Positions 2,731 through 20,398 of a DNA stretch of 64,000 nt are shown here, one piece after another (position 1 is the stretch's first letter; each line of letters begins with the position of its first letter). Below the pieces are notes generated by a model. That model did not search any database. It saw only the letters and a list, made by a program, of their open reading frames with translations, and was not told where the DNA came from. The stretch comes from Flavimaricola marinus. GTDB lineage: Bacteria > Pseudomonadota > Alphaproteobacteria > Rhodobacterales > Rhodobacteraceae. The position numbers and the translations under genes were made by a program. Where the stretch lies: NCBI RefSeq assembly GCF_900184895.1, contig NZ_FXZK01000012.1:1-64000 (forward strand). The letters are read 5' to 3'.

Positions 2731-4230
2731 TTAGCCCATTGTCGGCATTACAAATTCCGGATCGCTGCGCACACCGGACGGCCAACGTGTCGTTATAGTT
2801 TTGAGGCGTGTATAAAATCGAATACCTTCCATTCCATGCATGTGATGATCACCAAACAAGGACTGCTTCCAACCTCCAAAGGAGTGAAACGCCATCGGCA
2901 CTGGAATAGGTACATTGACTCCCACCATCCCGACCTCAATGTCATGAGCAAAGGTGCGAGCAGCATCCCCATCCCGCGTAAAAATTGCGACACCGTTGGC
3001 GTAGTCATGTTTATGGACCAGATCCACCGCATCGGCATAGTTCTTGCGACGTGCAATCGATAGCACCGGACCAAATATCTCTTCCTGCCAGACTGTCATG
3101 TCAGACGTCACTCCATCGATCAACGTCGGGCCGACGTAGTAGCCTTTCTCATAACCTTGGGGCCCTTGGAAGTCGCGCCCGTCAACCACGATTTTCGCAC
3201 CTTCCGCTTCGCCGCGGTCAATCAACCCCTTGATTTTTTCACGCGCGGCAGCGGTAATTACCGGGCCCATGTCTGATTTTCGATCAGCGGCCGGGCCAAC
3301 TTTGAGAGCCTCGATCTTTGGCACCAGTTTTTCAATCAACGCGTCAGCCACCTTGTCTGTGACCGCCACAGCCACGGAAATTGCCATGCAACGTTCTCCA
3401 GCTGAACCGTAGGCCGCTCCCATCAGCGCATTTGCAGCCATTTCAATGTCAGCATCGGGCAGAATGACCATGTGATTTTTGGCCCCCCCCAACGCTTGCA
3501 CGCGCTTGCCATTCGCAGTGCCCGTTTGGTAAATGTACTTGGCAATAGGAGTTGAGCCGACAAAGCTGACCGCTTTAACGTTTGGATGAGTCAACAGGGC
3601 GTCGACGGCTTCTTTGTCGCCCTGGATGACATTGAACACGCCGGCAGGGAGACCAGCCTCGGTCAGCCATTCCGCAATCAAGAGCGACGCAGAAGGATCA
3701 CGTTCTGATGGTTTCAAGATGAACGTGTTCCCGCAGGCAAGTGCGACAGGAAACATCCACATCGGCACCATCACGGGAAAGTTAAAAGGTGCAATACCGA
3801 CAACAACGCCAAGTGGCTGGCGCAGCGAGTGGCTGTCGACAGCAGTGCCTACATTTTCTGTCGTCTCACCTTTCAACAAATGCGGCGCCCCAACAGCGAA
3901 TTCCACCACTTCAAGCCCGCGAGTAACCTCCCCAACCGCATCATCATGGGTCTTTCCATGTTCAGCGGAAATAACTTCTGCAAGTTGATCGGCTCGATCC
4001 CATAAGATCATCTTGAAACGATCCAGAATGCGGGCGCGACGTAGCGGAGGCGTTTTTGACCAAGTCAGCCAAGCATTGTGAGCGGAGGCAACTGCGCGTT
4101 CAACTTCAACAGATGAGGCAAGGGCGACGGTGTGCTTCGTCTCACCTGTTGCTGGGTCGAAGACGGGCAGACTCCGACCTGAACTTCCTGCGACGGGTAC
4201 ATTGTCGATATAGTGAGCAATCTCGGTCAT
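2731..4230 (-). CDS. iolA: methylmalonate-semialdehyde dehydrogenase (CoA-acylating)
   Basis: A 499-residue aldehyde dehydrogenase of the MmsA/IolA type. It converts malonic semialdehyde (or methylmalonic semialdehyde) with CoA and NAD to acetyl-CoA (or propionyl-CoA) and CO2, the last step of inositol catabolism. Visible hallmarks are the NAD-binding PFNFP (N150), the LGGAKNH segment near residues 248-253 and the catalytic cysteine in GSAGERC (C281). The GERCMA context with KNH is typical of the CoA-acylating subgroup. It is transcribed divergently from a LysR regulator 93 bases away and separated from the other iol genes by the demethylase-like operon, so it may also serve valine degradation. 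Confidence 0.92.
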   Translation of the reverse strand: MTEIAHYIDNVPVAGSSGRSLPVFDPATGETKHTVALASSVEVERAVASAHNAWLTWSKTPPLRRARILDRFKMILWDRADQLAEVISAEHGKTHDDAVGEVTRGLEVVEFAVGAPHLLKGETTENVGTAVDSHSLRQPLGVVVGIAPFNFPVMVPMWMFPVALACGNTFILKPSERDPSASLLIAEWLTEAGLPAGVFNVIQGDKEAVDALLTHPNVKAVSFVGSTPIAKYIYQTGTANGKRVQALGGAKNHMVILPDADIEMAANALMGAAYGSAGERCMAISVAVAVTDKVADALIEKLVPKIEALKVGPAADRKSDMGPVITAAAREKIKGLIDRGEAEGAKIVVDGRDFQGPQGYEKGYYVGPTLIDGVTSDMTVWQEEIFGPVLSIARRKNYADAVDLVHKHDYANGVAIFTRDGDAARTFAHDIEVGMVGVNVPIPVPMAFHSFGGWKQSLFGDHHMHGMEGIRFYTRLKTITTRWPSGVRSDPEFVMPTMG

Positions 4231-5294: not shown

Positions 5295-6179
5295 TCAGCC
5301 TAGCCTTTCTGAGGCGTACCCGCCTGGGCTGGCCGGAAAGACCACGGTTTTGTCGCCATTTTGAAATACGCGGTGGTGAATATGGGCATGGATCGCCCTG
5401 GCGAATACCTGCGCTTCGACGTCACGACCAAGTGTGACGTAATCGCTTGCGCTTTGCGCATGCGTTACGCGGATTGTGTCTTGTTCAATGATCGGCCCCT
5501 CATCAAGGTCGGCCGTTACATAGTGCGCTGTTGCACCAATCAGTTTCACACCGCGTTCAAAGGCCTGCTTATAAGGGTTTGCACCTTTGAAACTCGGCAA
5601 GAAGGAGTGGTGGATATTGATAATGCGGCCTGACATTTTTCGGCACATCTGGTCGCTCAGGATCTGCATATACCGCGCTAAGACAACGAGCTCAGCATCG
5701 GACTCCTCAATTACTTGCATAATCCGCGCCTCGGCGTCTGGCTTATTCTCTTTAGTGACTTTGATGTGATGAAATGGGATGTCATGATTGACGACCAGCT
5801 TCTGATAATCGGTGTGGTTTGAAATAACGGCGACAATATCAATCGGCAGGGCACCGATGCGCCAGCGATACAGCAGATCGTTCAAACAATGCCCGAAACG
5901 CGACACCATGATCGCAACCTTCATTTTTGTGGCTTGGTCGTGGATAGCCCAGTCCATCTCAAATTGCGCGGCGGTTTCGTTGAAACGAGCGCGCAGGTCA
6001 TCCATATCCATGGCGTCGGGCGCTTTGAAGCTAACGCGCGTGAAAAACGCGCCCGTGATTGGGTCATCAAATTGGGCGCTGTCGGTGATGTTGCAATCAT
6101 GCTCTGCAAGGCATGTCGAGATTGCTGCGACAATGCCAATGGTAGAAACGCATGACACTGTAAGGGCAAAGTTGGGCAT
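5295..6179 (-). CDS. purU: formyltetrahydrofolate deformylase
   Basis: A 294-residue PurU. It hydrolyses 10-formyl-tetrahydrofolate to formate and tetrahydrofolate. The N-terminal ACT-like regulatory domain covers about residues 1-80 and the formyltransferase-fold hydrolase domain the rest. Catalytic-site landmarks are IINIHHSFLPSFKGANPY (Asn and His) and TADLDEGPIIEQD (Asp). It is the last gene of a five-gene minus-strand operon with an oxygenase, ferredoxin, reductase and PanB-like protein (40-base gap to the latter). That position suggests a job in unloading one-carbon units released by demethylation and recycling folate, rather than in purine supply. Confidence 0.93.
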   Translation of the reverse strand: MPNFALTVSCVSTIGIVAAISTCLAEHDCNITDSAQFDDPITGAFFTRVSFKAPDAMDMDDLRARFNETAAQFEMDWAIHDQATKMKVAIMVSRFGHCLNDLLYRWRIGALPIDIVAVISNHTDYQKLVVNHDIPFHHIKVTKENKPDAEARIMQVIEESDAELVVLARYMQILSDQMCRKMSGRIINIHHSFLPSFKGANPYKQAFERGVKLIGATAHYVTADLDEGPIIEQDTIRVTHAQSASDYVTLGRDVEAQVFARAIHAHIHHRVFQNGDKTVVFPASPGGYASERLG

Positions 6180-6219
6180 TATTGGCTTTCAAAATGGAGT
6201 GTGGCGGAAGGGCCGAAAT

Positions 6220-7029
6220 TCAGGACGTTCGATCACTCAATCGGGCGACGAATTTTTCAAGCTCGTCATCGCTGATTTTTATGGAGTGTTCCGCAGCGGG
6301 ATAGACAGCCTTGTCGACATCGGTCTTGAACTCGCGGAACGCGGCAATGCGTTCTTTCTGAAGCCGGTCGAATTCGCTGGCAAAATCGCGGTAGGTCTTA
6401 GCGTGGCGCGGCTTATGGCCCCTTGTGCACCCCAATACGTCTTCGGCGAAGAGGTATTGCGCGTCCGCATAGGGGCCAGCCCCCATGCCGAGCAGAACAA
6501 GGTTTGTGCGTTTCGATATCTCAAAACCGACGCGATCAGGAACAACTTCTAGTTCCACACCAAAACAGCCGATGTCTTCGAGTCTTTTGACCTGATCCAT
6601 AACCTGCATTGCGCTCTCAGCGGTTTTCCCAACCGCTTTAAAGCCGCCGGTCCAAGTTGCCTTGGACGGGATCAAACCGACGTGGCTCACAACCGGAATT
6701 CCATCATCAGCGAGCGCTTTGATCGTACCCATGGACGATGCACAATAGACGCAATCGGCCCCCGTTTGCACTGCGCGGTGCGCGGCACGTTGGTAATCTT
6801 CAAGCGTGACGAGTTGGCCGTAAAGCAGCCCGACTTGCACAAAGCAATTTCCCGCCGCCTTACGCATTTCTTCTGTCCAGACGGGGTCAATGATCGACAA
6901 CATATCAATACCCGCCTCCGCCGCCGCTGCGGCCTCATCGGGCGTTTCTACGTATAACATCGTCAGTTGACGCTTGCCCTTAAGCGCGCGAATATCCGCA
7001 ACTGTTGGCCGCTTGTGATACAGGTCCAT
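6220..7029 (-). CDS. divergent PanB-like (ketopantoate hydroxymethyltransferase family) protein
   Basis: A 269-residue TIM-barrel protein of the PanB family. Shared features are VVSHVGLIPSKATWTGGFKA, the general-base region GVELEVVP, GMGAGPYADAQYL and the C-terminal AVYPAAEHS. Compared from memory with E. coli PanB, the first metal aspartate is kept (SIIDPVW), but the region to the second ligand is about 20 residues shorter, the second aspartate is gone (VQVGLLYG) and the metal-binding glutamate is replaced (VYCASSMG). It is therefore unlikely to be the pantothenate enzyme. In an operon with purU and an oxygenase system, a role in one-carbon or formaldehyde transfer is a reasonable but unproven inference. 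Confidence 0.75.
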   Translation of the reverse strand: MDLYHKRPTVADIRALKGKRQLTMLYVETPDEAAAAAEAGIDMLSIIDPVWTEEMRKAAGNCFVQVGLLYGQLVTLEDYQRAAHRAVQTGADCVYCASSMGTIKALADDGIPVVSHVGLIPSKATWTGGFKAVGKTAESAMQVMDQVKRLEDIGCFGVELEVVPDRVGFEISKRTNLVLLGMGAGPYADAQYLFAEDVLGCTRGHKPRHAKTYRDFASEFDRLQKERIAAFREFKTDVDKAVYPAAEHSIKISDDELEKFVARLSDRTS

Positions 7030-7045
7030 GTTGTTCTCCTTAAGC

Positions 7046-8254
7046 TCAGTTCGCCGGAACGGGTCTGAGCAATTTTTTTAAATTTGTTGTAGGGTCTTCA
7101 AGGTGCGCAGCCTCTATCGCTACCTTGGCCTCAATCAGCTTGTGCGCCAACTTGATATCTTTGGCGACCGCATTGCCGACACCCAAGCCGGCCGCACCAA
7201 CCAATTGGTTGCTATTATTCAAGTAAAACAGGATCTCTGCATCATCTGAAAGCGTGCGAAGCGCAGTCGCTGTTCCATTGGTTTGCCCGACACCCTGCAA
7301 GCCAAGGTCATATTGGTCGGACCAAAACCAGACTGGAGGTTGGAAAACACCGGACGCACCTGCCAAGTTCCGACCCGCGATCTCACCTTGCAACTGAGCA
7401 TTCTGCCAAGTTTCAAATCTTTGAAGCCCAAGCCCCGAGAAGTTCACACTTGCGCAATCTCCAGCGGCAAAAATGTTGGTATCATTGGTGCGCAAAGCCT
7501 CATCAACGACGATCCCGTTACCGATATACAAACCAGCGGCCTGTGCGAGATCCGTATTTGGAACGACACCAATGGCCGCAACAACCAGATCTGCGGCAAT
7601 CGACTGACCGCCCACCAATTCGACAGCACGACCGGAAATGCGCGCGACCTCGACGTTACAGACGATATCCACGCCCTCGGCGATGTGACGTTCGACGATA
7701 CGCTGCGCGAGGGGCTGCGGAACATTGCGGCCAAGCGGCACAGGACCAGCCTCAAGAATCGTAACCTTGTTACCACGTCCAACCAGTTCAGCGGCGAGTT
7801 CAAGCCCGATAAGACCAGCCCCGATAATGACCGTGCGCGACCCGTTCACAGCCTGGCTGTAAATCCGGTTCGCATCTTCAATGGTCCGCAGCGTCACCGC
7901 GTGCTCGCTGCCCTCGCAGGTCAATCTGCGCGGGCTGGCACCTATCGCCAGAAGCAACCGCAAATACGGAAGGTCCTCCCCCGTCGACAAGCGCACACAA
8001 GAGGTATCTCTGTCAATTCGTAGCGCCCCGACACCATCGAGCAACGTGATATCTTTTGCGGCTAACATCTGCGTGGTGCAAATCGGCTTAAGGGTTGCGC
8101 CATTCGCGTCGGGTTTGGAAAGCGGCGGGCGTTCGTAGGGCAGGCCACTTTCATCGCCAACCAGTGTCACTTTACCGTCGAACCCATTGGCACGGGCGGC
8201 AAAGGCTGCACGGACACCGCACTCCCCTGCCCCGATGATCACAATACCCGACAT
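7046..8254 (-). CDS. FAD-dependent ferredoxin reductase (MocF-like)
   Basis: A 402-residue flavoprotein of the class that passes electrons from NAD(P)H to a Rieske ferredoxin. It shows an N-terminal FAD site (IVIIGAGECGVRAA), YERPPLSKP, a second dinucleotide-binding site (TVIIGAGLIGLELAAELVGRG) and the FAD-closing motif IFAAGDCA, all typical of ring-hydroxylating oxygenase reductases. Its ATG directly abuts the stop of the ferredoxin gene, so translation is likely coupled. It is the only such reductase in the window and would have to serve both ferredoxins encoded here. MocF of rhizopine catabolism is the analogue I have in mind. Confidence 0.88.
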   Translation of the reverse strand: MSGIVIIGAGECGVRAAFAARANGFDGKVTLVGDESGLPYERPPLSKPDANGATLKPICTTQMLAAKDITLLDGVGALRIDRDTSCVRLSTGEDLPYLRLLLAIGASPRRLTCEGSEHAVTLRTIEDANRIYSQAVNGSRTVIIGAGLIGLELAAELVGRGNKVTILEAGPVPLGRNVPQPLAQRIVERHIAEGVDIVCNVEVARISGRAVELVGGQSIAADLVVAAIGVVPNTDLAQAAGLYIGNGIVVDEALRTNDTNIFAAGDCASVNFSGLGLQRFETWQNAQLQGEIAGRNLAGASGVFQPPVWFWSDQYDLGLQGVGQTNGTATALRTLSDDAEILFYLNNSNQLVGAAGLGVGNAVAKDIKLAHKLIEAKVAIEAAHLEDPTTNLKKLLRPVPAN

Positions 8255-8566
8255 CTAAATTTCGATCAGGACGCGATCGCCCTCAACCTTGACGGGATAC
8301 ACTCCAAGATTGACACAGACAGGTGCGCGCGCTGCCTCGCCCGTACGATAGTCAAACTGACCGTTGTGTTTGGGGCATTCAATGGTGTGATCCATCACAA
8401 GACCATCCGCCAAATGAACGTTTTCATGGGTGCACAGACCGTCCGTGCAAAAATATTCATCATCAGGCGAGCGATAGATCGCAAATGTGCGCCCTTCGTG
8501 GTCGAAGCGGATCACGTCCTCTTCGTCGATGTCATCTGCACTACAAGCGTCAATCCAGTTTGCCAA
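8255..8566 (-). CDS. Rieske 2Fe-2S ferredoxin (MocE-like)
   Basis: A 103-residue soluble Rieske ferredoxin. The two cluster-binding motifs are CTHENVH (C-x-H) and CPKHNGQFD (C-x-x-H), about 20 residues apart. It should carry electrons between the reductase encoded directly downstream and the desaturase-type oxygenase encoded 11 bases upstream. A close paralogue lies at 23557-23871, in the unit that encodes the other hydroxylase. Its acidic N-terminal part (SADDIDEEDVIRFDHEGRTF) is almost the same in both. Confidence 0.92.
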   Translation of the reverse strand: MANWIDACSADDIDEEDVIRFDHEGRTFAIYRSPDDEYFCTDGLCTHENVHLADGLVMDHTIECPKHNGQFDYRTGEAARAPVCVNLGVYPVKVEGDRVLIEI

Positions 8567-8577
8567 TTGTCTGTTCC

Positions 8578-9681
8578 TTATTCTGCCTGAGTAGGTGTTT
8601 GTGTGACGTCGCCAAGCGCCTTTAGATGCAAATCCGTGCGGTATGGCTGCGCGCCGTCAGGGAGAGATCGCATCAGAAATTCATCATGATAAGTCAGTTG
8701 CCGCTTCAGGATTGGCCAAACCTCTTTGTAGGCATGCCAAATTGACGGATTCGGTGCCGGCAGGTCATGTTTGATCGCCGCATGCAGTTCCGGCAGCCGA
8801 TGATAGGGAACCATCGGAAACATATGGTGTTCCACGTGGTAGTTCATGTTCCAGTAGATGAACCGGCTGATCGGGTTCATGTAGACCGTGCGGCTGTTCA
8901 GGCGGTGGTCGATGACGTTATCTGCAAGACCCGCGTGCTGCAAAATGCCGGTCATAACGTGATGCCAGGCCCCGTAAAGGCGCGGCAATCCGATGATCAT
9001 GAGCGGTAGAATGGATTGCGTCGCCACCGCAAGAAGCAGGACAACTGCATAGATCGCAACCCAGATCCGCGCTGTGCGAAACACCTTGGGCTGCTCGCTT
9101 TGGGGGATGTAACTTGCGGCTTCGGGATCAAGGTGGCCAGATGCATTCTGGACCATCGTTTTCCAGCCTTGGAACGCATCCAGAATACCAAAGAAGTTCA
9201 GAAGAATGCGAAACAGCGCAGGTGGCCGCATCGCGACGATCTCGGGGTCGCGACCGACGATTACGGTATCGGTATGGTGGCGCGCATGACCCCAACGCCA
9301 CGTCACCGGATTGCGAACCATGCAGAATGACGCGATTTGGTAGACCCAGTCATTATATTTCGCAGTGCGGAATGGTGTACCATGCCCGCATTCATGCCAG
9401 CGGCTGTCCATCGCCGAGCCGTACAGAACACCATAAGCGAGCCAAAACGGAACCGACCACCATGTTGGCCAAAGCGCGACACCCAAAATAGCAAAGACCA
9501 CCATGGCTCCGAACAGGATGATCGTGTCACGGATCGCCGGCTGATCCTCGCGCTTCATCAGCGCCTTCATGTCCTTGCGGGCAATGTCGGTATGATACCA
9601 GTCAGCGGCTGCCAATCCTGTTTCAACTGCGCGCTGCGCATCCGGTCCCAGCAGTGAATAATCACGTTTTTGCATCGTCAT
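8578..9681 (-). CDS. fatty-acid-desaturase-family oxygenase (MocD-like)
   Basis: A 367-residue membrane di-iron enzyme. The three histidine boxes are HECGH (96-100), HARHH (132-136) and HVEHH (282-286), with hydrophobic membrane segments around 52-90 and 205-232. Enzymes of this fold desaturate or hydroxylate alkyl groups; with a Rieske ferredoxin and reductase in the same operon this one resembles MocD, proposed to oxidise the O-methyl group of 3-O-methyl-scyllo-inosamine. Given the inositol genes around it, O-demethylation of a methylated inositol or inosamine is the best inference. It is the first gene of its operon and divergent from a LacI regulator. Confidence 0.85.
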   Translation of the reverse strand: MTMQKRDYSLLGPDAQRAVETGLAAADWYHTDIARKDMKALMKREDQPAIRDTIILFGAMVVFAILGVALWPTWWSVPFWLAYGVLYGSAMDSRWHECGHGTPFRTAKYNDWVYQIASFCMVRNPVTWRWGHARHHTDTVIVGRDPEIVAMRPPALFRILLNFFGILDAFQGWKTMVQNASGHLDPEAASYIPQSEQPKVFRTARIWVAIYAVVLLLAVATQSILPLMIIGLPRLYGAWHHVMTGILQHAGLADNVIDHRLNSRTVYMNPISRFIYWNMNYHVEHHMFPMVPYHRLPELHAAIKHDLPAPNPSIWHAYKEVWPILKRQLTYHDEFLMRSLPDGAQPYRTDLHLKALGDVTQTPTQAE

Positions 9682-9785
9682 ATCTCGTTATCAGCAATCT
9701 AACCTATGAATATCAGACTGCGGCAGTTCTCGTCTTGTGGTGAGCATGTTTGTACATCAAAATACATCATTAGAACGCCAACAAG

Positions 9786-9801
9786 TGATGTGATTCAATC
9801 A
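9786..9801. promoter_or_regulatory. candidate LacI-type operator
   Basis: TGATGT, GATT, CAATCA. Read on the other strand it is TGATTG, AATC, ACATCA, which has the same arms as the sites at 30144 and 31242. It ends ten bases before the start of the LacI gene at 9811, the same kind of position as the site in front of the LacI gene ending at 23448, so autorepression plus control of the divergent oxygenase operon is likely. Confidence 0.6.
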
Positions 9802-9810
9802 AGGATATCC

Positions 9811-10842
9811 ATGACGAAGCGCCCGACCCTTAGAGATCTTGCGCATGCCGCTGGCGTTGGCGTTGCGACGGTTGATCGTGCGCTTAACGGGCGCTCCAAC
9901 GTGCGCCAGGAAACACTCGATCGTGTTTTGGACGCGGCCGAACGTATCGGCTACCCGAGCCGCGTGTTATCCGCACGACGCGACGAGGCCAGTCGCCCTC
10001 TGATCCGTTTTGGATTCGTACTTCATAAAGGATCGCAAGAGTTTTACCGTAATTTCGCAGCAGCCCTGCAAGATGCTGTCAATAGCCGGACCGACATCCG
10101 TGGCCGGGCAGTCATTCGCTTCGCAGCGTCGCAAGCGCCCGACGACTTCGCAAAAGAAATAGAATTCGTTGCACTGCAGACGGATGCGATTGCAACATCG
10201 GCAATCAACCACCCGTCCCTATCCGAACTGGTAAGCAACCTTGCCCGCACAGGCACGCCTGTCTTTGCGCTGTTGAACGACTTTGCCCAAAGCATCCGAC
10301 AGAACTACCTTGGGCTGGACAACGTCAAAGTCGGGCGCACTGCGGCATGGATGCTAACAACGCACGCACGCACTCCCGGTAAGTTGGCTGTATTTGTGGG
10401 CGGCAACCGGTGGCACGGACATCTGATGCGTGAGACGGGATTCCAAAGTTACATCCGCGAGTACGCGCCGGATTTCTCGATGATCGACACGGTGGTCAAT
10501 CTTGAAACCCGCCAGGTCACCTATGAAACAACGCTAGATCTCCTGGACCGCCAACCAGATCTGCGTGGCATCTACGTCGCCGGCGGCGGGATGGAAGGCG
10601 CGATCGCCGCTTTGCGCGAAAAGCGACCGCCCGGTAAGGTGGCGCTCGTTGTAAATGAGCTGACAGATGACAGCCGAAAGGCCCTTGTAGATCGCTATGC
10701 CACAATGGTTATCGCCACACCACTGCAAGAACTGTGCGAAAATGTGGTTCAGTTGATGATTGAGTCGCAGCTTAGCGGACGAACTTCCAGCCCGGGCCAG
10801 CACTTCCTGACACCTCAGTTGTATGTGCCGGAATCCTTCTAG
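9811..10842 (+). CDS. LacI-family transcriptional regulator (first of three)
   Basis: A 343-residue LacI-type repressor with an N-terminal HTH (LRDLAHAAGVGVATVDRALN) and a periplasmic-binding-protein-like effector domain. I chose ATG 9811 because the upstream in-frame start at 9706 adds residues with no LacI character. It is a close paralogue of the LacI encoded at 22417-23448; both share landmarks such as VGGNRWHGH, VNLETRQVTYE and YVAGGGMEGAIAA (or IAGGGMEGAIAA) and end in PESF. It is divergent from the oxygenase operon and convergent with iolB (4-base overlap of coding ends). The effector is probably an inositol derivative. Confidence 0.92.
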   Translation: MTKRPTLRDLAHAAGVGVATVDRALNGRSNVRQETLDRVLDAAERIGYPSRVLSARRDEASRPLIRFGFVLHKGSQEFYRNFAAALQDAVNSRTDIRGRAVIRFAASQAPDDFAKEIEFVALQTDAIATSAINHPSLSELVSNLARTGTPVFALLNDFAQSIRQNYLGLDNVKVGRTAAWMLTTHARTPGKLAVFVGGNRWHGHLMRETGFQSYIREYAPDFSMIDTVVNLETRQVTYETTLDLLDRQPDLRGIYVAGGGMEGAIAALREKRPPGKVALVVNELTDDSRKALVDRYATMVIATPLQELCENVVQLMIESQLSGRTSSPGQHFLTPQLYVPESF

Positions 10843-11645
10843 GCGTCGCGTTCCATGATCCATTCAACCTCGGCAGCCGCAACGAAACGCCACTTTCGCA
10901 GCGGCCCAGCCATGACATTGAGGTAATACATCTCGAACCCGTAGGGCGCGCCACAGGGATGATGACCGCGCGGCACGCAAACGACGTCGCCATCAGACAC
11001 CGCCATTGTTTCGTCCAACTGCCCGTCGTCAGTATAGACCCTTTGGATACCAAAGCCTGACGCAGGGTTCAGGCGGTGGTAATAGGTTTCCTCAAGGTGA
11101 GTGATGCGGGGGTAGTCGTCTTCATCGTGCCGGTGACTTGGATAGGACGACCAGTGACCGGCCGGAGTGAACACTTCTGTGACCAGTAAGCTGTCGCAGT
11201 AGTCTTCATTTTCCATCGCGATATTGTTGATGTGGCGTGTGTTGGTGCCCTTGCCGCGTTCGGTCAGCGTGATGCCATCCGGCCCGATGCGGCGCGCTTC
11301 GTGTCCGCCAACCCCCGGTGCCGAACAAACAGCGATAACACAATCGGTTTCCGCTTTGGCTGTCCAATCGGTTCCGTTTGGCAAATAGAGGCAATGCGGC
11401 GGCGTCTTTTCGAACACATCCATCCGTTCGCCCAAAACACCCCAATCCTGACCGGCCCCCGTGATAGCCGCCTTACCTTCGACCATGACCAAAATGACCT
11501 CTCGGCCCCCTGTCACCTCTGCCGCGTTGTCCCCCGTTTTCAGGCGATAAAGCGAGAATCCAACATATCGCCAGCCAGCGCTTTCTGGTGTGATTTGATG
11601 CACCTTGCCGCGGGTGCCAAACGGTTTTTTCAACAGATCAGCCAT
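10839..11645 (-). CDS. iolB: 5-deoxy-glucuronate isomerase
   Basis: A 268-residue IolB of normal length. It isomerises 5-deoxy-D-glucuronate to 2-deoxy-5-keto-D-gluconate in myo-inositol breakdown. The cupin metal site is visible in YPSHRHDEDDYPRITHLEE (two His and a Glu), with a further histidine in PRGHHPCG. It is the last gene of the ten-gene inositol operon, ten bases after iolE, and its 3' end overlaps the convergent LacI gene. Confidence 0.95.
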   Translation of the reverse strand: MADLLKKPFGTRGKVHQITPESAGWRYVGFSLYRLKTGDNAAEVTGGREVILVMVEGKAAITGAGQDWGVLGERMDVFEKTPPHCLYLPNGTDWTAKAETDCVIAVCSAPGVGGHEARRIGPDGITLTERGKGTNTRHINNIAMENEDYCDSLLVTEVFTPAGHWSSYPSHRHDEDDYPRITHLEETYYHRLNPASGFGIQRVYTDDGQLDETMAVSDGDVVCVPRGHHPCGAPYGFEMYYLNVMAGPLRKWRFVAAAEVEWIMERDA

Positions 11646-11655: not shown

Positions 11656-12561
11656 TCAGTTTTCGAGTGTCAGGCCAGAGCGGCCACAAATGTCGACGAT
11701 ATGATCATAGCCCAACTTTGAATACTCATACGGCGGAGCCAGTGCCGGATCTTGCTCAGCCTCGACCACGATCCAGCCGCCATAGTCCATCGCCTTAAGC
11801 CGATCTGTTATTGTCTGAAAATCAATGCAGCCTTCGGGATCGCCTGGTACTGAGTAAACCCCTGCCCGCACGCCATCTAGAAAGCTGTGGTTTTCGGTGC
11901 GAACCCATGCCATCTTGTCGGGACGCACGTCTTTGAAATGGACATGGTGCACGCGATCACCCCATCGATCGAGTACCGCCAGCGGGTCGGCCCCCGCAAA
12001 TAGCAAATGGCCTGTATCATATAGCAGCGTCACTTCGGGGCCCGACCCCTCCATGAGCCAATCTATGTCTTCGGAGTCCTCAATCATGCTGCCCATATGG
12101 TGGTGATATGACAGCGTCATCCCCTTGTCCGACATCCATTTGGCTAGTTCCGTCAGCTTTAATGCGTAGGATTTCACGTCGTCACGGCTTAACTTCGGGC
12201 GATTACGAACGGGCGTCGAAAGGTCGCCCTGCACGGTGTTCGAACATTCAGCGTAAACGATGCAAGGCGCATCAAGTGCCACGAATTGTTCTACTTGTTG
12301 ACGCACGGCAGCTTTCTCATCCTCGAGCGAGGCGGTCATCAGGCTGCCTGAACACCACCCCCCACACAGCGACACACCGTAACGGTCGAGATAGCTGCGC
12401 AGCCCATCCGTATCGGCGGGCATCCGACGGCCGCGTTCAACACCTTGATAGCCGATGCGCCCAGCATCCTCCATCGCGCCTTCGGTCGTAAAGTCGGCAG
12501 TCAGGTCCGGTAAGTCATCGTTCTGCCAAGCGATGAGGGAAATACCAATTTTGACAGCCAT
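11656..12561 (-). CDS. iolE: myo-inosose-2 dehydratase
   Basis: A 301-residue xylose-isomerase-like TIM-barrel protein that dehydrates scyllo-inosose to the cyclohexanetrione-type diketone. The start MAVKIGISLIAWQND at 12561 is typical of IolE and its ATG overlaps the TGA of iolD by one base; an earlier in-frame start at 12657 lies inside iolD and is rejected. Family landmarks are YHHHMGSMIEDSEDIDWL, LLYDTGHLLFAG and HVHFKDVRPDK, which carry the metal-binding residues. Confidence 0.95.
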   Translation of the reverse strand: MAVKIGISLIAWQNDDLPDLTADFTTEGAMEDAGRIGYQGVERGRRMPADTDGLRSYLDRYGVSLCGGWCSGSLMTASLEDEKAAVRQQVEQFVALDAPCIVYAECSNTVQGDLSTPVRNRPKLSRDDVKSYALKLTELAKWMSDKGMTLSYHHHMGSMIEDSEDIDWLMEGSGPEVTLLYDTGHLLFAGADPLAVLDRWGDRVHHVHFKDVRPDKMAWVRTENHSFLDGVRAGVYSVPGDPEGCIDFQTITDRLKAMDYGGWIVVEAEQDPALAPPYEYSKLGYDHIVDICGRSGLTLEN

Positions 12562-14390
12562 CAATCTGCCCTTTGCTGTGTCTTGTTTGTTACATAAGCC
12601 GAGCGCGCCGCGCTGACCTTTTCGCGTTGGGAAACCTCTGGCACGGCAACGTCCCACCAGGTTCCCCCGTGTTCCGTTGACGGATAAGGATCGGTGTCGA
12701 TGACCACAACATATGGCCCCGATACATCGCCCCGCTTTGCCAAGGCCTGTTCAAGATCTTCAATTGATGAGACCTTAACGCTTGTCGCCCCCATAGAGGC
12801 CGCATGGGCAGCAAAGTCGATGGCAGAGGGGTTCGCATGAACCGAATGGTCCAGCAGGTTGTTAAACTCTGCGCCACCTGTGCCCATTTGTAGCCTGTTG
12901 ATACAGCCATAGCCGCGATTGTCCGTCACCACGACAGTAAACGATATGCCCATCATCGCGGCTGTCGCCATTTCTGAGTTCGCCATCATGTAGGTGCCGT
13001 CGCCGGTAAAGCAGATTACGTCGCGCCCTGGCTGTGCCATCTTGATGCCCATTGCGCCGGCGATCTCGTAGCCCATGCAGCTGAAACCGTATTCCATGTG
13101 ATAAGACATCGGGCGGCTGGATTTCCACAACTTATGGAGCTCACCGGGCATCGTGCCCGCTGCGCACATCACCACCGTGTCGTCGGTCGCCGCCCGTTGT
13201 ACTGCGCCCACGACCTGCATATCGGTGGGCAAAGCATTGCCATCGGGCCTTTCGGTCAATGGATCGACCTTGCCAAACCAGTCAGATTTCAGGTCTTCAA
13301 TACCTGCCCTCGATTGATAGTTTTCTAGCGCGGCAGACAACTCTTCAAGCCCCGCTTTCGCATCAGCAAGCAACGGCAGAGCGTCATGCTTGGCCGCATC
13401 GTACGCAGCGACGTTCAGGCAAGCGATCTTGCGGACGGGATTAGCGAACAATCCCCATGACCCCGTCGTAAAATCCTGAAACCGAGTACCGACACCCAAC
13501 ACCAAATCAGCCTCGGCACAAACAGTATTCGCTGGCGTGCCACCCGTCACACCGATCGGCCCCAGATTGAGAGGATGGTCCCACGGCAGCGCGGATTTCC
13601 CCGCCTGTGTTTCCGCGACAGGAATGTTGTGTGTCTCTGCAAAGCTGCGCAAGGCCTCCGTTGCGCCCGAATAGTGCACCCCGCCGCCCGCAACGACGAT
13701 CGGACGCTTGGCGGCCCTGATTGCATCCGCCATCGCGGCCAATTCATCAACGTCCGGACGCATCCGGCGCGCGACCCAGACTTTGGGCGCAAAAAAGCTT
13801 TCGGGATAGTCGAAGGCCTCGGCCTGCACATCCTGGCAAAATGCCAATGTTACAGGACCGCACTCTGCAGGATCGGTCATTGTGCGAAAGGCACGCGGCA
13901 ATGCCGTCAACAATTGTTCGGGCCGGGTAATGCGATCAAAATACCGACTGACAGGTTTGAACACGTCGTTTGCGCTTACCGTGCCGTCGTTGAAGTCCTC
14001 GATCTGTTGCAACACCGGATCAGGTCCGCGATTGGCAAACACATCTCCCGGCACCAAAAGAACTGGTAGGCGATTTACGTGGGCCAAGGCCGCGGCGGTG
14101 ACCATATTGGTGGCTCCCGGCCCGATGGACGAGCTGACCATCATTGCCCGCTTGCGGCCTAATTGTTTGGCATAGGCGATCGCTGCGTGTGCCATTGTCT
14201 GTTCATTGTGCCCGCGCCACGTCGGCAGGTCGTCTTTCGCGTGGTACAGCGCCTCGCCCAATCCGGCGACGTTCCCATGACCAAAAATGGCCCAGCATCC
14301 GGCGATAAAAGGCTCTCCGGTTTCGGTTTTCTGGGCCGCAACAAATTTCACCATGGCCTGCGCCGCTGTCAGTCGAATTGTTTTAGCCAT
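12561..14390 (-). CDS. iolD: 3D-(3,5/4)-trihydroxycyclohexane-1,2-dione acylhydrolase (decyclizing)
   Basis: A 609-residue thiamine-diphosphate enzyme that opens the ring of the inositol-derived diketone to give 5-deoxy-glucuronate. The activating glutamate is in GHNEQTMAHAA near residue 60, and the ThDP-Mg motif is ICFTGDGTYMMANSEM near residue 475 followed by VVVTDNRGYGC. Length and landmarks fit IolD. It overlaps iolC upstream by eight bases and touches iolE downstream, so translation is probably coupled. Confidence 0.95.
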   Translation of the reverse strand: MAKTIRLTAAQAMVKFVAAQKTETGEPFIAGCWAIFGHGNVAGLGEALYHAKDDLPTWRGHNEQTMAHAAIAYAKQLGRKRAMMVSSSIGPGATNMVTAAALAHVNRLPVLLVPGDVFANRGPDPVLQQIEDFNDGTVSANDVFKPVSRYFDRITRPEQLLTALPRAFRTMTDPAECGPVTLAFCQDVQAEAFDYPESFFAPKVWVARRMRPDVDELAAMADAIRAAKRPIVVAGGGVHYSGATEALRSFAETHNIPVAETQAGKSALPWDHPLNLGPIGVTGGTPANTVCAEADLVLGVGTRFQDFTTGSWGLFANPVRKIACLNVAAYDAAKHDALPLLADAKAGLEELSAALENYQSRAGIEDLKSDWFGKVDPLTERPDGNALPTDMQVVGAVQRAATDDTVVMCAAGTMPGELHKLWKSSRPMSYHMEYGFSCMGYEIAGAMGIKMAQPGRDVICFTGDGTYMMANSEMATAAMMGISFTVVVTDNRGYGCINRLQMGTGGAEFNNLLDHSVHANPSAIDFAAHAASMGATSVKVSSIEDLEQALAKRGDVSGPYVVVIDTDPYPSTEHGGTWWDVAVPEVSQREKVSAARSAYVTNKTQQRAD

Positions 14391-16308
14391 TAGCCTTTTC
14401 CCTATTCAATCGGGCATCAACACGCGCCGCATCCCAGACGTCGCAAAGCCCAGCGAAGCGGGCTGCCATCTGGTCAACCGCGTCAACGTCCGATATTTCA
14501 CCTTTCATCCATGCACGCGCCGCATCACCAAAGATGGTGCGGCCAACAGCAAACCCTTTGACTAACGGCTGTCTCGCCGCGAGCGCAAAAGACGCTGCAA
14601 GCTCGCTCTCGGGGGCATCAAGACCCAGAACCACAATCCCTCGGGTGCGCGGATCGTTGCGCCCGATTGCCTTTACCGCGTTGGACCATGCGGCGTCGGT
14701 CTTGAACGGTTCAAGCTTCCACCAATCGGGATATACGCCGACATCGTAAAATTGCTGGATCAGTTTCGGCGTCGTCATATCATCAACGGGGCCAACCTTG
14801 GATGGGATCACCTCAAGCAGGAATTCCAAATCGTTGCGCCGCGCCGCCGTAAATAGGCGCTTAACCCGCTCCTCCTGAGTCTTCTTTGTATCGACGTCAT
14901 CATCTGGATGACAAAAGACCAACAGTTTCACGACATTCTCTTTCGGCCATTCTCGCAATTGGCCAAAATCCTCGCCCAACTCCGGTTCAAACTCGATCGG
15001 GCGTGATCCTGGCAATTCTGTAGGTCTGCCAATCCAAAGTCCTGATCCGCTGGCCGCATGAAGCGCCTGACGGCCAATCCGATTGTCACATAGAATTCCG
15101 AAACCCGACTGTCCGTTCTGCACCTGCAAAGCCGCATCAAGGCAGAGTCGTTTAAAGGTACTGGCTTTCTTCAGGCTGTACCCATCCATCTCTTCAAGCT
15201 GCAAACGGTGATCAAACGCGAAGGTTTTGACCGAAGACCAAGTTCCCCGACGGTTCGTAGCCCAGTGGACCTGTTCCAGTTCGACATCGTTGCGCAAATC
15301 GGGTTGCTTGATGCCGCGCTCAAAGAAAAACTGGAGTTCGTCCCAAGATGGATAAGCTGGCGTGCAACCGTGTCGCGAAACGGCAAAGGCGCCACAGGCA
15401 TTGGCATATTTCAACGTGTTTGCCCAATCCTCACCGTCCAGCCACCCCTTGAGAAGGCCGGACATAAAGCCGTCGCCCGCGCCCAAGACATTAAAGACCT
15501 CAATCGGAAAGCCCGGACCGGATTGGCCATCGTCAAGGCTCTCCGGAATGTCTCCCGTAAACGCCACCGCACCATCCGCGCCGCGCTTACACACCAAAGT
15601 TGCACCTGACACGGCGCGGACGGCCCGTAGCGCCGCGATGGTGTCAGTGGTGCCCCCAGCTATGTGGAACTCCTCTTCGGTGCCCACGATCAAATCAAAC
15701 AAATGCAAAGTGGTTTGAAGCCTGGACGTAACTTCCGCGCTTTCAACAAAACGGCTTTCGCCATCACCGTGGCCCGCAACGCCCCACAAGTTTGGACGGT
15801 AATCAATATCAAGCGCGGTCTGCATGTCATTGGTCCGCGCGATTTCTAATGCCTTCAGCGTCGCCGCCTCGACCTGCGGGTTGCTCAGATGTGTGCCTGT
15901 CGCAACCACAGCACGGGCCGACGTAACAAACTCCTCGTCGATATCATCCACCGTCAGTCCCATATCGGCGCAGTTCTCGCGATAGAATATCAACGGGAAT
16001 TGTTCGCTGTCGCGGATGCCCAACAACACCAGTGCCGTCAGGCGGTCAGGGTCAACTTTCACCCCCTGCGTGCTCACCCCTTCCCGCGCCAGTTGTTCCT
16101 TAATGAAGCGGCCCATGTGTTCATCACCAACCGCCGTGACAACCCCAGACTTCAACCCCAACCGCGCAGTCCCACAGGCGATATTCGTTGGTGAGCCACC
16201 GATATATTTATCAAACGCCCCCATGTCCTCTAGGCGCCCACCAATCTGCGCGCCGTAGAGATCAACCGAACTTCGACCTATCGTGATTAAATCAAGGTTC
16301 TTGGTCAT
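14383..16308 (-). CDS. iolC: 5-dehydro-2-deoxygluconokinase fused to a DUF2090 domain
   Basis: A 641-residue fusion. Residues 1 to about 325 are a PfkB-family kinase (GGSPTNIACGTARLG near the start; the ATP and base motif VFNVLGAGDGFMSGLLKG) that phosphorylates 2-deoxy-5-keto-gluconate. The rest is a DUF2090 domain, an aldolase-like TIM barrel, containing FAFDHRLQLEEMDGY and LEVIPSKVG. No separate iolJ aldolase is present in the window, so the second domain is the best candidate for cleaving the phosphorylated product; that is an inference. The gene overlaps iolG and iolD. Such fusions are common in proteobacterial iol clusters. Confidence 0.93.
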   Translation of the reverse strand: MTKNLDLITIGRSSVDLYGAQIGGRLEDMGAFDKYIGGSPTNIACGTARLGLKSGVVTAVGDEHMGRFIKEQLAREGVSTQGVKVDPDRLTALVLLGIRDSEQFPLIFYRENCADMGLTVDDIDEEFVTSARAVVATGTHLSNPQVEAATLKALEIARTNDMQTALDIDYRPNLWGVAGHGDGESRFVESAEVTSRLQTTLHLFDLIVGTEEEFHIAGGTTDTIAALRAVRAVSGATLVCKRGADGAVAFTGDIPESLDDGQSGPGFPIEVFNVLGAGDGFMSGLLKGWLDGEDWANTLKYANACGAFAVSRHGCTPAYPSWDELQFFFERGIKQPDLRNDVELEQVHWATNRRGTWSSVKTFAFDHRLQLEEMDGYSLKKASTFKRLCLDAALQVQNGQSGFGILCDNRIGRQALHAASGSGLWIGRPTELPGSRPIEFEPELGEDFGQLREWPKENVVKLLVFCHPDDDVDTKKTQEERVKRLFTAARRNDLEFLLEVIPSKVGPVDDMTTPKLIQQFYDVGVYPDWWKLEPFKTDAAWSNAVKAIGRNDPRTRGIVVLGLDAPESELAASFALAARQPLVKGFAVGRTIFGDAARAWMKGEISDVDAVDQMAARFAGLCDVWDAARVDARLNREKANG

Positions 16309-17315
16309 GTCGAAACCTTTAGCTCCGACAATTTCACCACGCGCTGCTCCGCCACTGACAACAAAGCCGCATCCGCCAGCGCCAGCGCAACCATTCCGTC
16401 GTGGCCGGTCGTCGGCGTTGCGGTCTTGCCCGAAACAGCCGCAACAAATCCGGCTATCTCATTGGCATAAGCAGCGATATAGCGCGTCATGAAGAAGTCG
16501 AGTAACGGCGGCTGGTGGAACCCGCTTTCGTCCGCCAACACGATATTGGCTTCGCGCATGTTTTCGGCAGAGACTGACCCCTTGGATCCCAAAACCTCAA
16601 TCCGCTGGTCGTAGCCATAGGTTGCACGACGCGAATTGGTGATGGTGCATTGTTTTCCGCTTTCCGTCGTCAGGATAACGTTGACGCTGTCGTAGTCGCC
16701 CAGCTTACCGATCTCGGAGTCGGTCAGGACAGATGCCGCCGCTTGCACGGTTGCGATTTCTTCACCCAGCAACCATCTCGCCACGTCAAAATCATGAATT
16801 GTCATGTCGCGGAAAATACCGCCCGACACCTTGATGTATTCCGCAGGTGGTGCGCCGGGATCGCGGCTGGAAATCGTGACCATCTCAACGTCACCGATCT
16901 TGCCATCGTCAATAGCTTTCTTCAACGCCATAAAATCGGGATCGAACCGACGATTGAAGCCAACCATCAAGGTCGCGTTTTCTTCGCTGACGGTCTTGAG
17001 ACATTCCTTTACCCGTTCCAGATCAAGATCGATCGGCTTCTCGCAGAACACTGCCTTTCCAGCGCGGGCGAATTGTTCGATCAAAGTGGCGTGGGTGTCT
17101 GTCGGCGTACAGATTGCCACGGCATCGACATCATCGCTGGCGGCAATTGCGTCAATTGTGCGGATGTCGCAACCATAATTAGCAGCCACTTTTTGCGCCG
17201 CAGCCGCCATAGGATCGGCGATTGCGACAAGGGACGCGCCCTCGGTTGAAGCGACAGCGCGGGCATGAACCTGGCCGATCCGACCAGCACCCAGAATTGC
17301 AAAACGAACGGTCAT
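16305..17315 (-). CDS. iolG: myo-inositol 2-dehydrogenase
   Basis: A 336-residue Gfo/Idh/MocA-family NAD-dependent dehydrogenase, the first step of inositol catabolism (myo-inositol to scyllo-inosose). It has the Rossmann motif AILGAGRIGQVHARA, the EKP motif in VFCEKPIDLD (catalytic lysine) and the D-x-x-x-H-type active-site helix MTIHDFDVARWLLG. Its ends overlap both neighbours by four bases. Two further family members lie at 17312 and 24894, so inositol stereoisomers are probably divided among the three; this one has the most typical IolG context. Confidence 0.93.
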   Translation of the reverse strand: MTVRFAILGAGRIGQVHARAVASTEGASLVAIADPMAAAAQKVAANYGCDIRTIDAIAASDDVDAVAICTPTDTHATLIEQFARAGKAVFCEKPIDLDLERVKECLKTVSEENATLMVGFNRRFDPDFMALKKAIDDGKIGDVEMVTISSRDPGAPPAEYIKVSGGIFRDMTIHDFDVARWLLGEEIATVQAAASVLTDSEIGKLGDYDSVNVILTTESGKQCTITNSRRATYGYDQRIEVLGSKGSVSAENMREANIVLADESGFHQPPLLDFFMTRYIAAYANEIAGFVAAVSGKTATPTTGHDGMVALALADAALLSVAEQRVVKLSELKVST

Positions 17316-18382
17316 AATAGTCTCCAGTCTACCGGTGTGTCGGTTTGTTGTAGTTTTGAATCGAGTTGAACAATCTGGCCTGATGCAGCGGCGATGCGCG
17401 CCGCGTCGAGCACTTCGACGGTTCGTAAAGATTGGCGCGCGGGGACCGGCCCATCTGTGCCGTCCCGAATTGCTTTGGCAAATTCGGTATAGTAATCGCT
17501 GTAGTCGGACCGAAGGGACGGAATTCTGCGCGGGCCGCTTTCACCATAAAGCGTTCCCCAAGCCGATTGCGGCTCCTCGCCCCAATTGTCGGAGGTAGCG
17601 GGTCGTTTCCCGTCAATGGCCTCGCGGGCCTGCACGTCGGTGCCATTGACAACGTAAGCGCCCTTTGTCCCGTAAACACGAATTTCCCGCGCATTGAGAT
17701 AATTGGCCTTCGTCGCAGAAATATAGCTGTGCGCACCGCTTACGTGTCGCAGGTGGATCACGAAATCTACGTCCGTGCGGCCTTCGGCAAAATTGAGATG
17801 GTTGACTTGCGCATCAACGAATTCAACTGGCCCTAACAGCCAGATCATTTGATCCACGAGATGACTTCCCAGATCGCGCAACAAACCGCCATCCGGCCCG
17901 CGCTCTAGCGTTTCTATCTGATCGAAGTCCATTCGATTGTGGACGCGCTGGATATCCCCCAACTCCCCCGCATCAATCAAGGAAGCCAGTGTCACCAAAT
18001 CGGTGTCGCGCCTGCGGTTTTGAAAAACATTCAACAAGACACCCTTTTTGACCGCCGCGTCTGCCATTTGGGCGGCATCCCGAAGGTTCATCGCGAACGG
18101 TTTGTCGCAGACCACGTGCAATCCGGCTTCAATAGCCTCAAGCGTCAAAGGCGTATGTGTCGCGGGCGGGGTTGTGATTGTCACCACGTCGAAGCTGCCA
18201 TCTGCGATCAGATCGGACAGACTCGCAAAGACCGGCACACCGGGGAGATCGAAGGCTATCTGTGCGATCTTGTCGGCGGACCGCGCCACCACGCCGCCGA
18301 TCTCGACGCCGTCAGCGGCCTGAATGAACGGCGCGTGAAAAATCCGGCCACCGAAACCGTAGCCTACAAGTCCAAGTTTCAT
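17312..18382 (-). CDS. Gfo/Idh/MocA-family oxidoreductase (IolW-like)
   Basis: A 356-residue dehydrogenase starting at MKLGLVGYGFGGRIFHAPF; a longer frame to 18424 lacks family support. The GYGxGGRxFHAP signature is what I associate with the NADP-linked scyllo-inositol dehydrogenase IolW and its relatives. The catalytic lysine lies in CDKPFAMN (DKP rather than EKP) and the active-site helix is RDLGSHLVDQMIWLLG. It is in the inositol operon between the ABC ATPase and iolG, so a role in interconverting scyllo-inositol (or a derivative) and the inosose is likely. Substrate and cofactor are not proven by the sequence. Confidence 0.85.
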   Translation of the reverse strand: MKLGLVGYGFGGRIFHAPFIQAADGVEIGGVVARSADKIAQIAFDLPGVPVFASLSDLIADGSFDVVTITTPPATHTPLTLEAIEAGLHVVCDKPFAMNLRDAAQMADAAVKKGVLLNVFQNRRRDTDLVTLASLIDAGELGDIQRVHNRMDFDQIETLERGPDGGLLRDLGSHLVDQMIWLLGPVEFVDAQVNHLNFAEGRTDVDFVIHLRHVSGAHSYISATKANYLNAREIRVYGTKGAYVVNGTDVQAREAIDGKRPATSDNWGEEPQSAWGTLYGESGPRRIPSLRSDYSDYYTEFAKAIRDGTDGPVPARQSLRTVEVLDAARIAAASGQIVQLDSKLQQTDTPVDWRLL

Positions 18383-18441
18383 GGATACCTCAAATCTAAA
18401 TGATTTTGACGGCCCGCCTCTCATGCCCGAAGGCCAAGACG

Positions 18442-19224
18442 TTAAGCCGCGTCTTCATAGCCCTCTTGTGTCTTGGCTCCGGTGATATAACCAACAACAT
18501 CCTCGCCTGTGATGTCGCCCTTGGTAATGTCTAGGTCAGCGCAAATCCGTCCACGCCGGAACACAACGACACGGTCCACAAGGTCAAACACCTGACGCAT
18601 ATTGTGGCTGACCAGAATGAGGGGCTCACCCGCTTCCTTGAGAGTTCGGATGATGTTCTCTACCTGCGCGGTTTCTTGGACGCCCAGTGCAGCCGTAGGC
18701 TCGTCCATAATCGTTAGCTTGGAGTGGAACGTCGCTGTACGGGCGATTGCCACACACTGGCGTTGCCCCCCCGACATATTGCGGATTGCATTGCGGATAT
18801 TGGGAATCTTCACCGCTGTTTTCTCAAGCCCAGCAAGGGTCGCCTCACGCATGGCGCGATAGTCGAGGAGCCGGAACGGTCCGAGAAAATTCCATTTCGT
18901 GATCTCTCGTCCAAGAAACAGGTTGTCCGGCACGTCCAAATCGTCGGCCAGCGCCAAAGTCTGGAACACGGTTTCAATACCGGCTTCACGGGCGTCCAGC
19001 GGTCCAGCGAAATGCACAGGCTTGCCGCCGAAAATGATATCGCCGCGGGTACGCTGCTCCACACCTGTGATCTGGCGCACAAAAGTCGATTTTCCGGCCC
19101 CGTTGTCGCCCATGATCGCAATGTGCTCTCCGTCGCGCAGTTTGAAATTTGCGCCTTCAAGGGCATGCACGCCACCATAGTGTTTCGTCAAATCGCGGGT
19201 TTCTAGGATGATGTTATCGGTCAT
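18442..19224 (-). CDS. sugar ABC transporter ATP-binding protein (single-domain, Frc-type)
   Basis: A 260-residue single-domain ATPase of a CUT2-type importer. Walker A is [11 protein letters not shown], the signature is MSGGQRQCVAIAR, and Walker B is [13 protein letters not shown]. Start MTDNIILETRDLTKHYGG at 19224 fits the family; the longer frame runs into the permease gene. It energises the permease encoded 13 bases upstream and the binding protein before that. The single-domain form resembles FrcA rather than the duplicated RbsA form used at 50019-51545. Inositol or an inositol derivative is the expected substrate from context. Confidence 0.92.
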   Translation of the reverse strand: MTDNIILETRDLTKHYGGVHALEGANFKLRDGEHIAIMGDNGAGKSTFVRQITGVEQRTRGDIIFGGKPVHFAGPLDAREAGIETVFQTLALADDLDVPDNLFLGREITKWNFLGPFRLLDYRAMREATLAGLEKTAVKIPNIRNAIRNMSGGQRQCVAIARTATFHSKLTIMDEPTAALGVQETAQVENIIRTLKEAGEPLILVSHNMRQVFDLVDRVVVFRRGRICADLDITKGDITGEDVVGYITGAKTQEGYEDAA

Positions 19225-19237
19225 GTGAAATTTCCTT

Positions 19238-20323: not shown

Positions 20324-20367
20324 GTTTTTCCCTCAAGCCGCTTTCGCCCGATGATACGCCGATTTGC

Positions 20368-20398
20368 CGGAGCGGCACACATTTCGCGCACCGCTCCG
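20368..20398 (-). other. intercistronic stem-loop after the binding-protein gene
   Basis: CGGAGCGG and CCGCTCCG pair as an 8-bp stem with a 15-base loop in the 95-base gap between the binding-protein stop and the permease start. There is no T-run. Such hairpins commonly protect the upstream mRNA and raise binding-protein output over the membrane components. Similar hairpins follow the other binding-protein genes here (27881, 52572, 57782). Confidence 0.65.

Follow-up and report, generated by a model that had tools for sequence, protein, structure and literature searches.

A probably O-demethylating, moc-type operon within an inositol cluster of Flavimaricola marinus encodes an uncharacterized PanB-fold protein

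In the first 64,000 nucleotides of contig NZ_FXZK01000012.1 of Flavimaricola marinus (RefSeq assembly GCF_900184895.1; hereafter the window), five genes at positions 5295-9681 form a minus-strand operon that lies within an inositol cluster and diverges from a gene for a LacI-family regulator (Table 1). In order of transcription, they encode a MocD-like membrane oxygenase, a MocE-family Rieske ferredoxin, a MocF-like flavin adenine dinucleotide (FAD) ferredoxin reductase, a protein with the fold of ketopantoate hydroxymethyltransferase (KPHMT, or PanB; the protein is here called PanBL), and PurU, a deformylase of 10-formyl-tetrahydrofolate (10-formyl-THF). The intergenic gaps are 11, 0, 16, and 40 bases, and the three histidine boxes of the oxygenase can be read in its translation (HECGH, HARHH, and HVEHH). 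A preliminary description of this DNA, made from the sequence alone, had reported both the arrangement and the histidine boxes; coordinates and family searches confirm the arrangement, and the translation confirms the boxes. The mocF-like gene occupies the same position as the reductase gene at rhizopine loci. For the LacI gene, the ATG at 9811 suits the usual N-terminus of the family, and ~129 bases then separate lacI from the mocD operon. The operon (5295-9681) contains no folD gene; the sole FolD noted in the genome is encoded at C16:726132.

The gene order was surveyed at 80 placements of panBL in other genomes, most of them in loci that had been selected for the presence of panBL or mocD; own-genome loci and 23 short loci (L100-L122) were set aside, three loci with two panBL genes are included, and the broken gene of L099 is counted twice. 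Within 7 kb of panBL, mocE is present at 64 of the 80 placements, a gene for a mocD- or FA_hydroxylase-type oxygenase at 62, and purU at 21. The full order mocD-mocE-mocF-panBL-purU on one strand was found in 12 loci, based on a filter that considered named genes only, such that other genes may intervene (L038 has two dehydrogenase genes separating purU from panBL; L098, also counted, has a split mocD). These loci comprise L021, L022, L025, and L038 from Rhodobacterales relatives, L087 from Mesorhizobium huakuii, L091 from Agrobacterium tumefaciens, and six rhizopine loci; the five-gene order also occurs in Litoreibacter. A folD match comes next after purU in 6 of the 12. Intact folD genes follow purU in L087 and L091, and at rhizopine loci folD is full length in L094, shortened in L095 and L099, and split in L096 and L097. 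Annotated records likewise show mocD-mocE-mocF-panBL, with purU-folD following in two.

A mocDEF rhizopine catabolism operon was reportedly described by Bahar in 1998 from Sinorhizobium meliloti L5-30 and Rhizobium leguminosarum. Using a MocD match, we identified locus L089 on pSymA of S. meliloti KH35c, which carries genes for MocR, a divergently encoded binding protein, and Gfo/Idh and IolE-like proteins upstream of mocD, and panBL and then purU downstream of mocF. Its MocR passes the rhizopine_MocR equivalog NF052281 (763.9 bits, cut-off 650), and the moc-box pair that passages of PMC10107442 describe for rhizopine promoters stands directly before mocD (0 mismatches; 0.00 expected); these two features mark L089 as a rhizopine locus. 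The upstream genes fit the published rhizopine gene set mocCABRDEF (as listed in sections of PMC6668481). A different setting is given in part of PMC5132102 for Pseudomonas syringae, in which mocDEF adjoins xylA without mocCABR. With the L089 MocR as the query, 14 plasmid records were found at ≥86% identity, and all seven rhizopine loci fetched from these records carry mocD-mocE-mocF-panBL-purU, albeit with breaks in two (panBL and purU each lie in two frames in L099, as does mocD in L098). The preliminary description had proposed a database search for the five-gene order, which thus recurs both among the surveyed placements and throughout the fetched rhizopine loci. It had also known of no operon coupling these five functions; the coupling is, however, not unique to the window, since the same five genes are present at moc loci, although the published list, in the sections cited above, stops at mocF, and we found no account of a moc operon with purU or panB-like genes in the portions of open-licence PMC literature covered. 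Since the order follows mocR at rhizopine loci, the window operon is a moc demethylation module next to a different regulator: it shares relatives of MocD, MocE, and MocF in the same order with the rhizopine operon, whereas it adjoins an iol cluster and stands beside LacI rather than MocR (no search for MocR was made elsewhere in the genome). No moc-box pair was found in the window (0 matches allowing up to 3 mismatches).

PanBL differs from PanB at presumed active-site positions. The window protein fails the panB equivalog TIGR00222 (99.6 bits, cut-off 207.55), and the standard PanB of this genome (C16:128209) matches PF02548 with 344.7 bits. We aligned 78 PanBL sequences, one pair of which is identical, with 15 other PF02548 rows, 13 of them standard PanB; the own-genome repeats L004 and L009-L011 were omitted. 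At the positions that we take to be the Mg and keto-acid residues of E. coli PanB (D84, K112, and E114), all 13 standard rows have D, K, and E, whereas these residues are kept in 0 of the 78 PanBL rows, in which the commonest substitutes are G (67), Y (74), and A (46). Also lost are ~20 residues following D45, a position that, like H136 and E181, we number by presumed E. coli PanB residues. In common with PanB, the H136- and E181-aligned residues are kept in all 78 rows. Other invariants are specific to PanBL: E159, R208, and H209 in 78 of 78 and R227 in 77. The predicted PanBL structure (predicted local distance difference test score [pLDDT] 82.3, from an alignment that omitted seven plasmid rows and L051) is closest to KPHMT (3vav; Z 24.3, 211 residues, 2.8 Å). 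Outside KPHMT, the best match reaches Z 15.6, and relatives from the isocitrate-lyase/phosphoenolpyruvate (PEP)-mutase group reach ~15. By these comparisons of sequence and predicted structure, PanBL has the PanB fold but is unlikely to catalyze the ketopantoate reaction. A role in pantothenate synthesis is disfavored, as the genome has a normal PanB and panBL lacks the three key residues. The preliminary description had treated the PanB-like protein as a folate-type protein; this classification was not borne out, given these lost residues and a set of partners that spans three kinds of oxygenase.

In an order sample of 244 genomes, panBL is present in 37, MocE in 41, and both in 30; panBL occurs in 18 of 398 sampled Pseudomonadota genomes, and the 18 all belong to the same class. 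We compared 42 panBL matches (E up to 1e-40) with 29 other PF02548 matches from the same genomes: 27 that score as standard PanB and two divergent ones (G084 C2 and G076 C9). An FA_desaturase or FA_hydroxylase oxygenase is encoded within 10 kb in at least 35 of the 42 panBL loci (within 2 kb in at least 31) and, among the matches listed, in 0 of the 29 others (Fisher 1.5e-13 for at least 35/42 versus 0/29, with related genomes treated as independent). In L072, L075, and L076, panBL lies among ribose-type ABC genes, within ~5 kb of a same-strand gene for a PhyH-family Fe(II)/2-oxoglutarate oxygenase (PF05721 was tested for L076; the L072 and L075 proteins are 88% and 72% identical); L072 and L076 also encode a PfkB kinase, and L076 encodes RbsD. 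The four remaining panBL loci, C30 of this genome, G047, G015, and G114, are near mocE. On C30, mocE is 18 bases away at the contig edge, and this second mocE-panBL pair (C30:1943-3039, L012) is surrounded by sugar-type genes and lies near genes for a Zn-dehydrogenase, a 2-hydroxyacid dehydrogenase, and a kinase-like protein; in G015 and G114, mocE is 7.4 kb from panBL and an FA_hydroxylase gene is at ~13 kb. Because both the neighbors of PanBL and the oxygenases vary, the common element is most simply the one-carbon (C1) product, and this speaks for PanBL acting in C1 metabolism; the association suggests that PanBL handles a C1 product common to three unrelated oxygenase types. PanBL is the new and surprising part of the system: its family is uncharacterized, carries the annotation of a vitamin enzyme, and goes along with likely oxidative O-demethylation.

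As a separate observation, the gene rows of L072, L075, and L076 outline a candidate pathway for catabolism of 2-O-methyl-ribose or 2'-O-methyl-nucleosides. According to passages of a 2025 report (PMC12709175), members of the PhyH family demethylate nucleosides at the 2'-O-methyl position, and formaldehyde release was shown for one of them. These ribose O-demethylases (FJS) resemble the proposed system in O-demethylation at a sugar ring, with formaldehyde release there, and a PhyH gene stands in a row with three distant panBL genes. They differ in that the FJS type is an Fe(II)/2-oxoglutarate enzyme that has no ferredoxin and does not occur in the window, and the likeness is by PhyH family only.

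Based on the gene content, the conserved order, and the partners of PanBL, we consider it likely that the operon is a moc-type module for oxidative O-demethylation, with the C1 carbon passing to formate and the cyclitol to the iol pathway. The imported compound would be an O-methylated cyclitol; O-methyl-inositols such as pinitol, ononitol, or sequoyitol are the most likely candidates. Electrons from NADH would flow through the reductase (MocF) and the ferredoxin (MocE) to MocD, the presumed O-methyl hydroxylase, and the hydroxylated O-methyl group, a hemiacetal, would collapse to, or be held as, free cyclitol and formaldehyde-level carbon. The freed cyclitol would enter the adjoining iol pathway, and the formaldehyde-level carbon would be transferred to THF with the help of PanBL; FolD would then convert methylene-THF to 10-formyl-THF, from which PurU would release formate and regenerate THF. 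Given PurU in the window, FolD in the genome, and purU-folD beside panBL in relatives, formaldehyde to methylene-THF to formyl-THF to formate would be the cheapest route. The part in C1 disposal that the preliminary description had assigned to PurU is supported, since PurU, together with the folD gene beside it in relatives, fits a folate-linked route. A comparable arrangement is the purU-mabO-folD operon for nicotine on pAO1, where, in the portions consulted of PMC6214936 and of a review (PMC3891541), FolD and PurU of a demethylation operon likewise route methylene-THF to formate; the demethylase there is an oxidase yielding methylene-THF, whereas the window encodes an oxygenase and a separate PanB-like protein. 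A passage of the same review (PMC3891541) also has PanB of Pseudomonas putida J5 involved in nicotine metabolism.

Several observations weigh against this reading. PurU occurs in 10 of the 37 panBL genomes, in 3 of them within 1.2 kb of panBL, and the PurU route is therefore best regarded as optional. Of the 41 MocE-bearing genomes in the order sample, 11 lack panBL, and two Caballeronia plasmid loci carry mocD and mocE (with or without mocF) but no panBL. In G047, panBL is 12 bases from mocE, and no oxygenase of the three kinds was found in the 15 kb searched. At the D45 position of PanB, 17 of the 78 PanBL rows, the window's included, retain D. In addition, 10 of the 37 panBL genomes lack a standard PanB, and a PanB-like role is conceivable there despite the lost residues. 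Finally, formaldehyde and THF can condense without an enzyme, as stated in a section of PMC8879981.

The identity of the oxygenase and that of its substrate bear on how the module is read. The oxygenase carries the Pfam name FA_desaturase, which would suit a lipid desaturase, or an unrelated hydroxylase, with the C1 genes as chance neighbors. However, the window MocD is 67% identical to MocD of rhizopine locus L089, and both fall among the 44 of 47 rows that share a branch with a Shimodaira-Hasegawa-like approximate likelihood ratio test (SH-aLRT) value of 100; the three rows outside the branch are L078 and two paralogs of the desaturase family from this genome (the tree was made with a quick method and has long branches, and four further paralogs of this genome were left out). 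The preliminary description had named clustering of the oxygenase with lipid desaturases, together with a gene order conserved nowhere, as a ground for abandoning its proposal; the tree disfavors a lipid desaturase. The gene order is, moreover, common to many genera, and we give very little credence to the lipid desaturase or chance-neighbor explanation. No convincing solved-structure relatives of MocD were found by sequence (best E 0.9). The MocD clade and the same gene order after mocR support a MocDEF-type O-demethylase feeding the inositol pathway, as had been proposed. The preliminary description had left the substrate as either a methylated inositol or a rhizopine, and here the evidence favors the former: the substrate is probably an O-methyl-inositol. 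That the operon demethylates rhizopine (3-O-methyl-scyllo-inosamine) itself would agree with the relatives of MocD, MocE, MocF, PanBL, and PurU at rhizopine loci, with a transporter-binding protein in the window (ABC1; positions 20419-21543) that is 62% identical to the one divergent from mocR in L089, and with a second binding protein (ABC2) that resembles the rhizopine binding-protein (SBP) model NF052284 below its cut-off (157.9 bits versus 420). Rhizopine is nevertheless improbable as the substrate, since the regulator gene next to the operon is of the LacI family and is not mocR, and no moc-box pair is present in the window; in addition, five annotated rhizobial plasmid records show the divergent LacI and mocDEF-panBL layout with no moc regulator alongside. 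Rhizobial clusters next to FixV homologs, described in passages of PMC3538637, share with the window a divergent LacI gene, mocDEF, and an adjacent TIM-barrel gene, whereas the window adds purU to the operon, adjoins iol genes, and belongs to a Rhodobacterales-type genome; the terms 'panB' and 'purU' do not occur in the text portions of that article (figure content excluded).

For PanBL, we tentatively propose a dedicated role in loading the C1 unit of demethylation, either formaldehyde or the O-hydroxymethyl hemiacetal, onto THF, such that the keto-acid half of the PanB reaction would have been lost and the hydroxymethyl chemistry kept. A somewhat less probable alternative is that PanBL acts on the cyclitol or sugar as an aldolase, isomerase, or lyase similar to those of the isocitrate-lyase/PEP-mutase superfamily, for example, by splitting a hydroxymethyl group off a C-methylated cyclitol in a retro-aldol reaction. 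After KPHMT, the closest fold neighbors are lyases and mutases belonging to that superfamily (Z ~15), the H136- and E181-aligned residues are retained in every row, and panBL occurs in ribose-type gene rows with PfkB kinase and RbsD. Yet the neighbors of panBL differ in oxygenase type and, judging by their names, in substrate class (inositol, other sugar-acid-like, and ribose-like), and a plausible common denominator of the neighborhoods is oxidative demethylation. Moreover, rhizopine is an O-methyl ether whose operon carries panBL although a C-methyl retro-aldol reaction is unneeded there, and for this reason a PanB-type retro-aldol reaction on C-methyl cyclitols is kept only as a rival to the C1-loading role. 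In a section of PMC8879981, enzymes speed the condensation of formaldehyde with tetrahydromethanopterin (Fae) and with glutathione (Gfa), and the THF reaction is spontaneous; PanBL is a direct candidate for the missing THF partner among these formaldehyde-condensing enzymes. If the C1-loading role is correct, PanBL would serve MocD-, FA_hydroxylase-, and PhyH-type demethylases throughout the Alphaproteobacteria as the THF counterpart of Fae and Gfa, and it would be an unreported part that completes the rhizopine pathway. It would also explain genes annotated as a pantothenate enzyme in the sugar operons of many genomes and provide a marker for bacteria that consume O-methylated cyclitols.

The surrounding cluster holds a complete set of inositol pathway genes (semialdehyde dehydrogenase, iolB, iolE, iolD, an iolC/aldolase fusion, and iolG). 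Two TIM-barrel genes are also present, along with genes for two ABC transporters, two additional Gfo/Idh dehydrogenases, and three LacI regulators, the second and third of which were identified by eye (Table 1). It also encodes a second MocE ferredoxin and an FA_hydroxylase-type membrane oxygenase, which were missing from the preliminary description.

Table 1. Positions of the operon, candidate operators, and neighboring genes in the window
Feature	Position	Strand	Basis or remark
mocD-like membrane oxygenase, FA_desaturase family, presumed diiron	8578..9681	minus	PF00487 124.6 bits, cut-off 29.7
mocE, Rieske [2Fe-2S] ferredoxin	8255..8566	minus	TIGR02377 (MocE family) 181.5 bits, cut-off 136.15
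mocF-like FAD ferredoxin reductase	7046..8254	minus	Pfam Pyr_redox_2 + Reductase_C
panBL, KPHMT/PanB-fold protein	6220..7029	minus	PF02548 134.3 bits
purU, 10-formyl-THF deformylase	5295..6179	minus	TIGR00655 334.5 bits, cut-off 285.95
Divergent LacI-family regulator	9706..10842 (ORF)	plus	Start probably ATG 9811
Operator-like palindrome, mocD/lacI intergenic region	9786..9801		2-3 mismatches to motif
Operator-like palindrome, upstream of TIM-barrel/ABC1 genes	22401..22416		3 mismatches
Operator-like palindrome, upstream of second oxygenase unit	30144..30159		3 mismatches
Methylmalonate-semialdehyde dehydrogenase, iolA-type (mmsA-type)	2731..4230	minus	TIGR01722 684.9 bits
iolB	10839..11645	minus	TIGR04378
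iolE	11656..12657	minus	TIGR04379
iolD	12561..14390	minus	TIGR04377
iolC fused to aldolase	14383..16308	minus	NF047869 702.8 bits, cut-off 600
iolG, inositol 2-dehydrogenase	16305..17315	minus	TIGR04380 417.6 bits, cut-off 355
Second Gfo/Idh/MocA dehydrogenase	17312..18424	minus	Pfam
Sugar-type ABC transporter 1 (ABC1)	18442..21543	minus	Permease assigned by eye
TIM-barrel (AP_endonuc_2) gene	21444..22259	minus	Profile match
Second MocE-family ferredoxin	23557..23868	minus	TIGR02377 147.5 bits, cut-off 136.15
Second catabolic unit: TIM barrel, Gfo/Idh dehydrogenase, ABC transporter 2 (ABC2)	23938..28963	minus	Permease by eye
FA_hydroxylase-type membrane oxygenase of second unit	29014..30027	minus	PF04116 68.4 bits, cut-off 31

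A candidate operator was sought with the consensus TGATGTAATYACATCA. Of 22 relatives examined, 4 (L024, L031, L033, and L036) have mocD promoters with the palindromes on which this consensus is based, and it was then searched in the window. It matches three places only (6 strand matches versus 0.38 expected; 0 of 100 shuffles reach 6), and exact copies of the palindrome arms occur in only 3 of 122 loci. The LacI-family regulator would control the operon, perhaps via this palindrome, which is also found before ABC-transporter genes and the second oxygenase unit; the motif matches suggest a putative LacI regulon joining uptake and both oxygenases. Since the choice of motif was post hoc and few other loci carry it, this regulation stays a suggestion.

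Relatives of the second-unit genes (23557-30027) accompany panBL and iol genes in many fetched Rhodobacterales loci. A lone second mocD gene of this genome (60%) is located on C31 (L016). A third oxygenase/MocE pair, consisting of an FA_hydroxylase-type gene and a gene for a MocE ferredoxin, straddles the end of the window (C44:63950-65266, L084). By eye, an IS3-type transposase-like open reading frame (ORF) at 33423-34238 separates the inositol cluster from the next catabolic genes, and the translations of three ORFs at 60407-63715 resemble the transposition proteins TniQ, TniB, and TniA.

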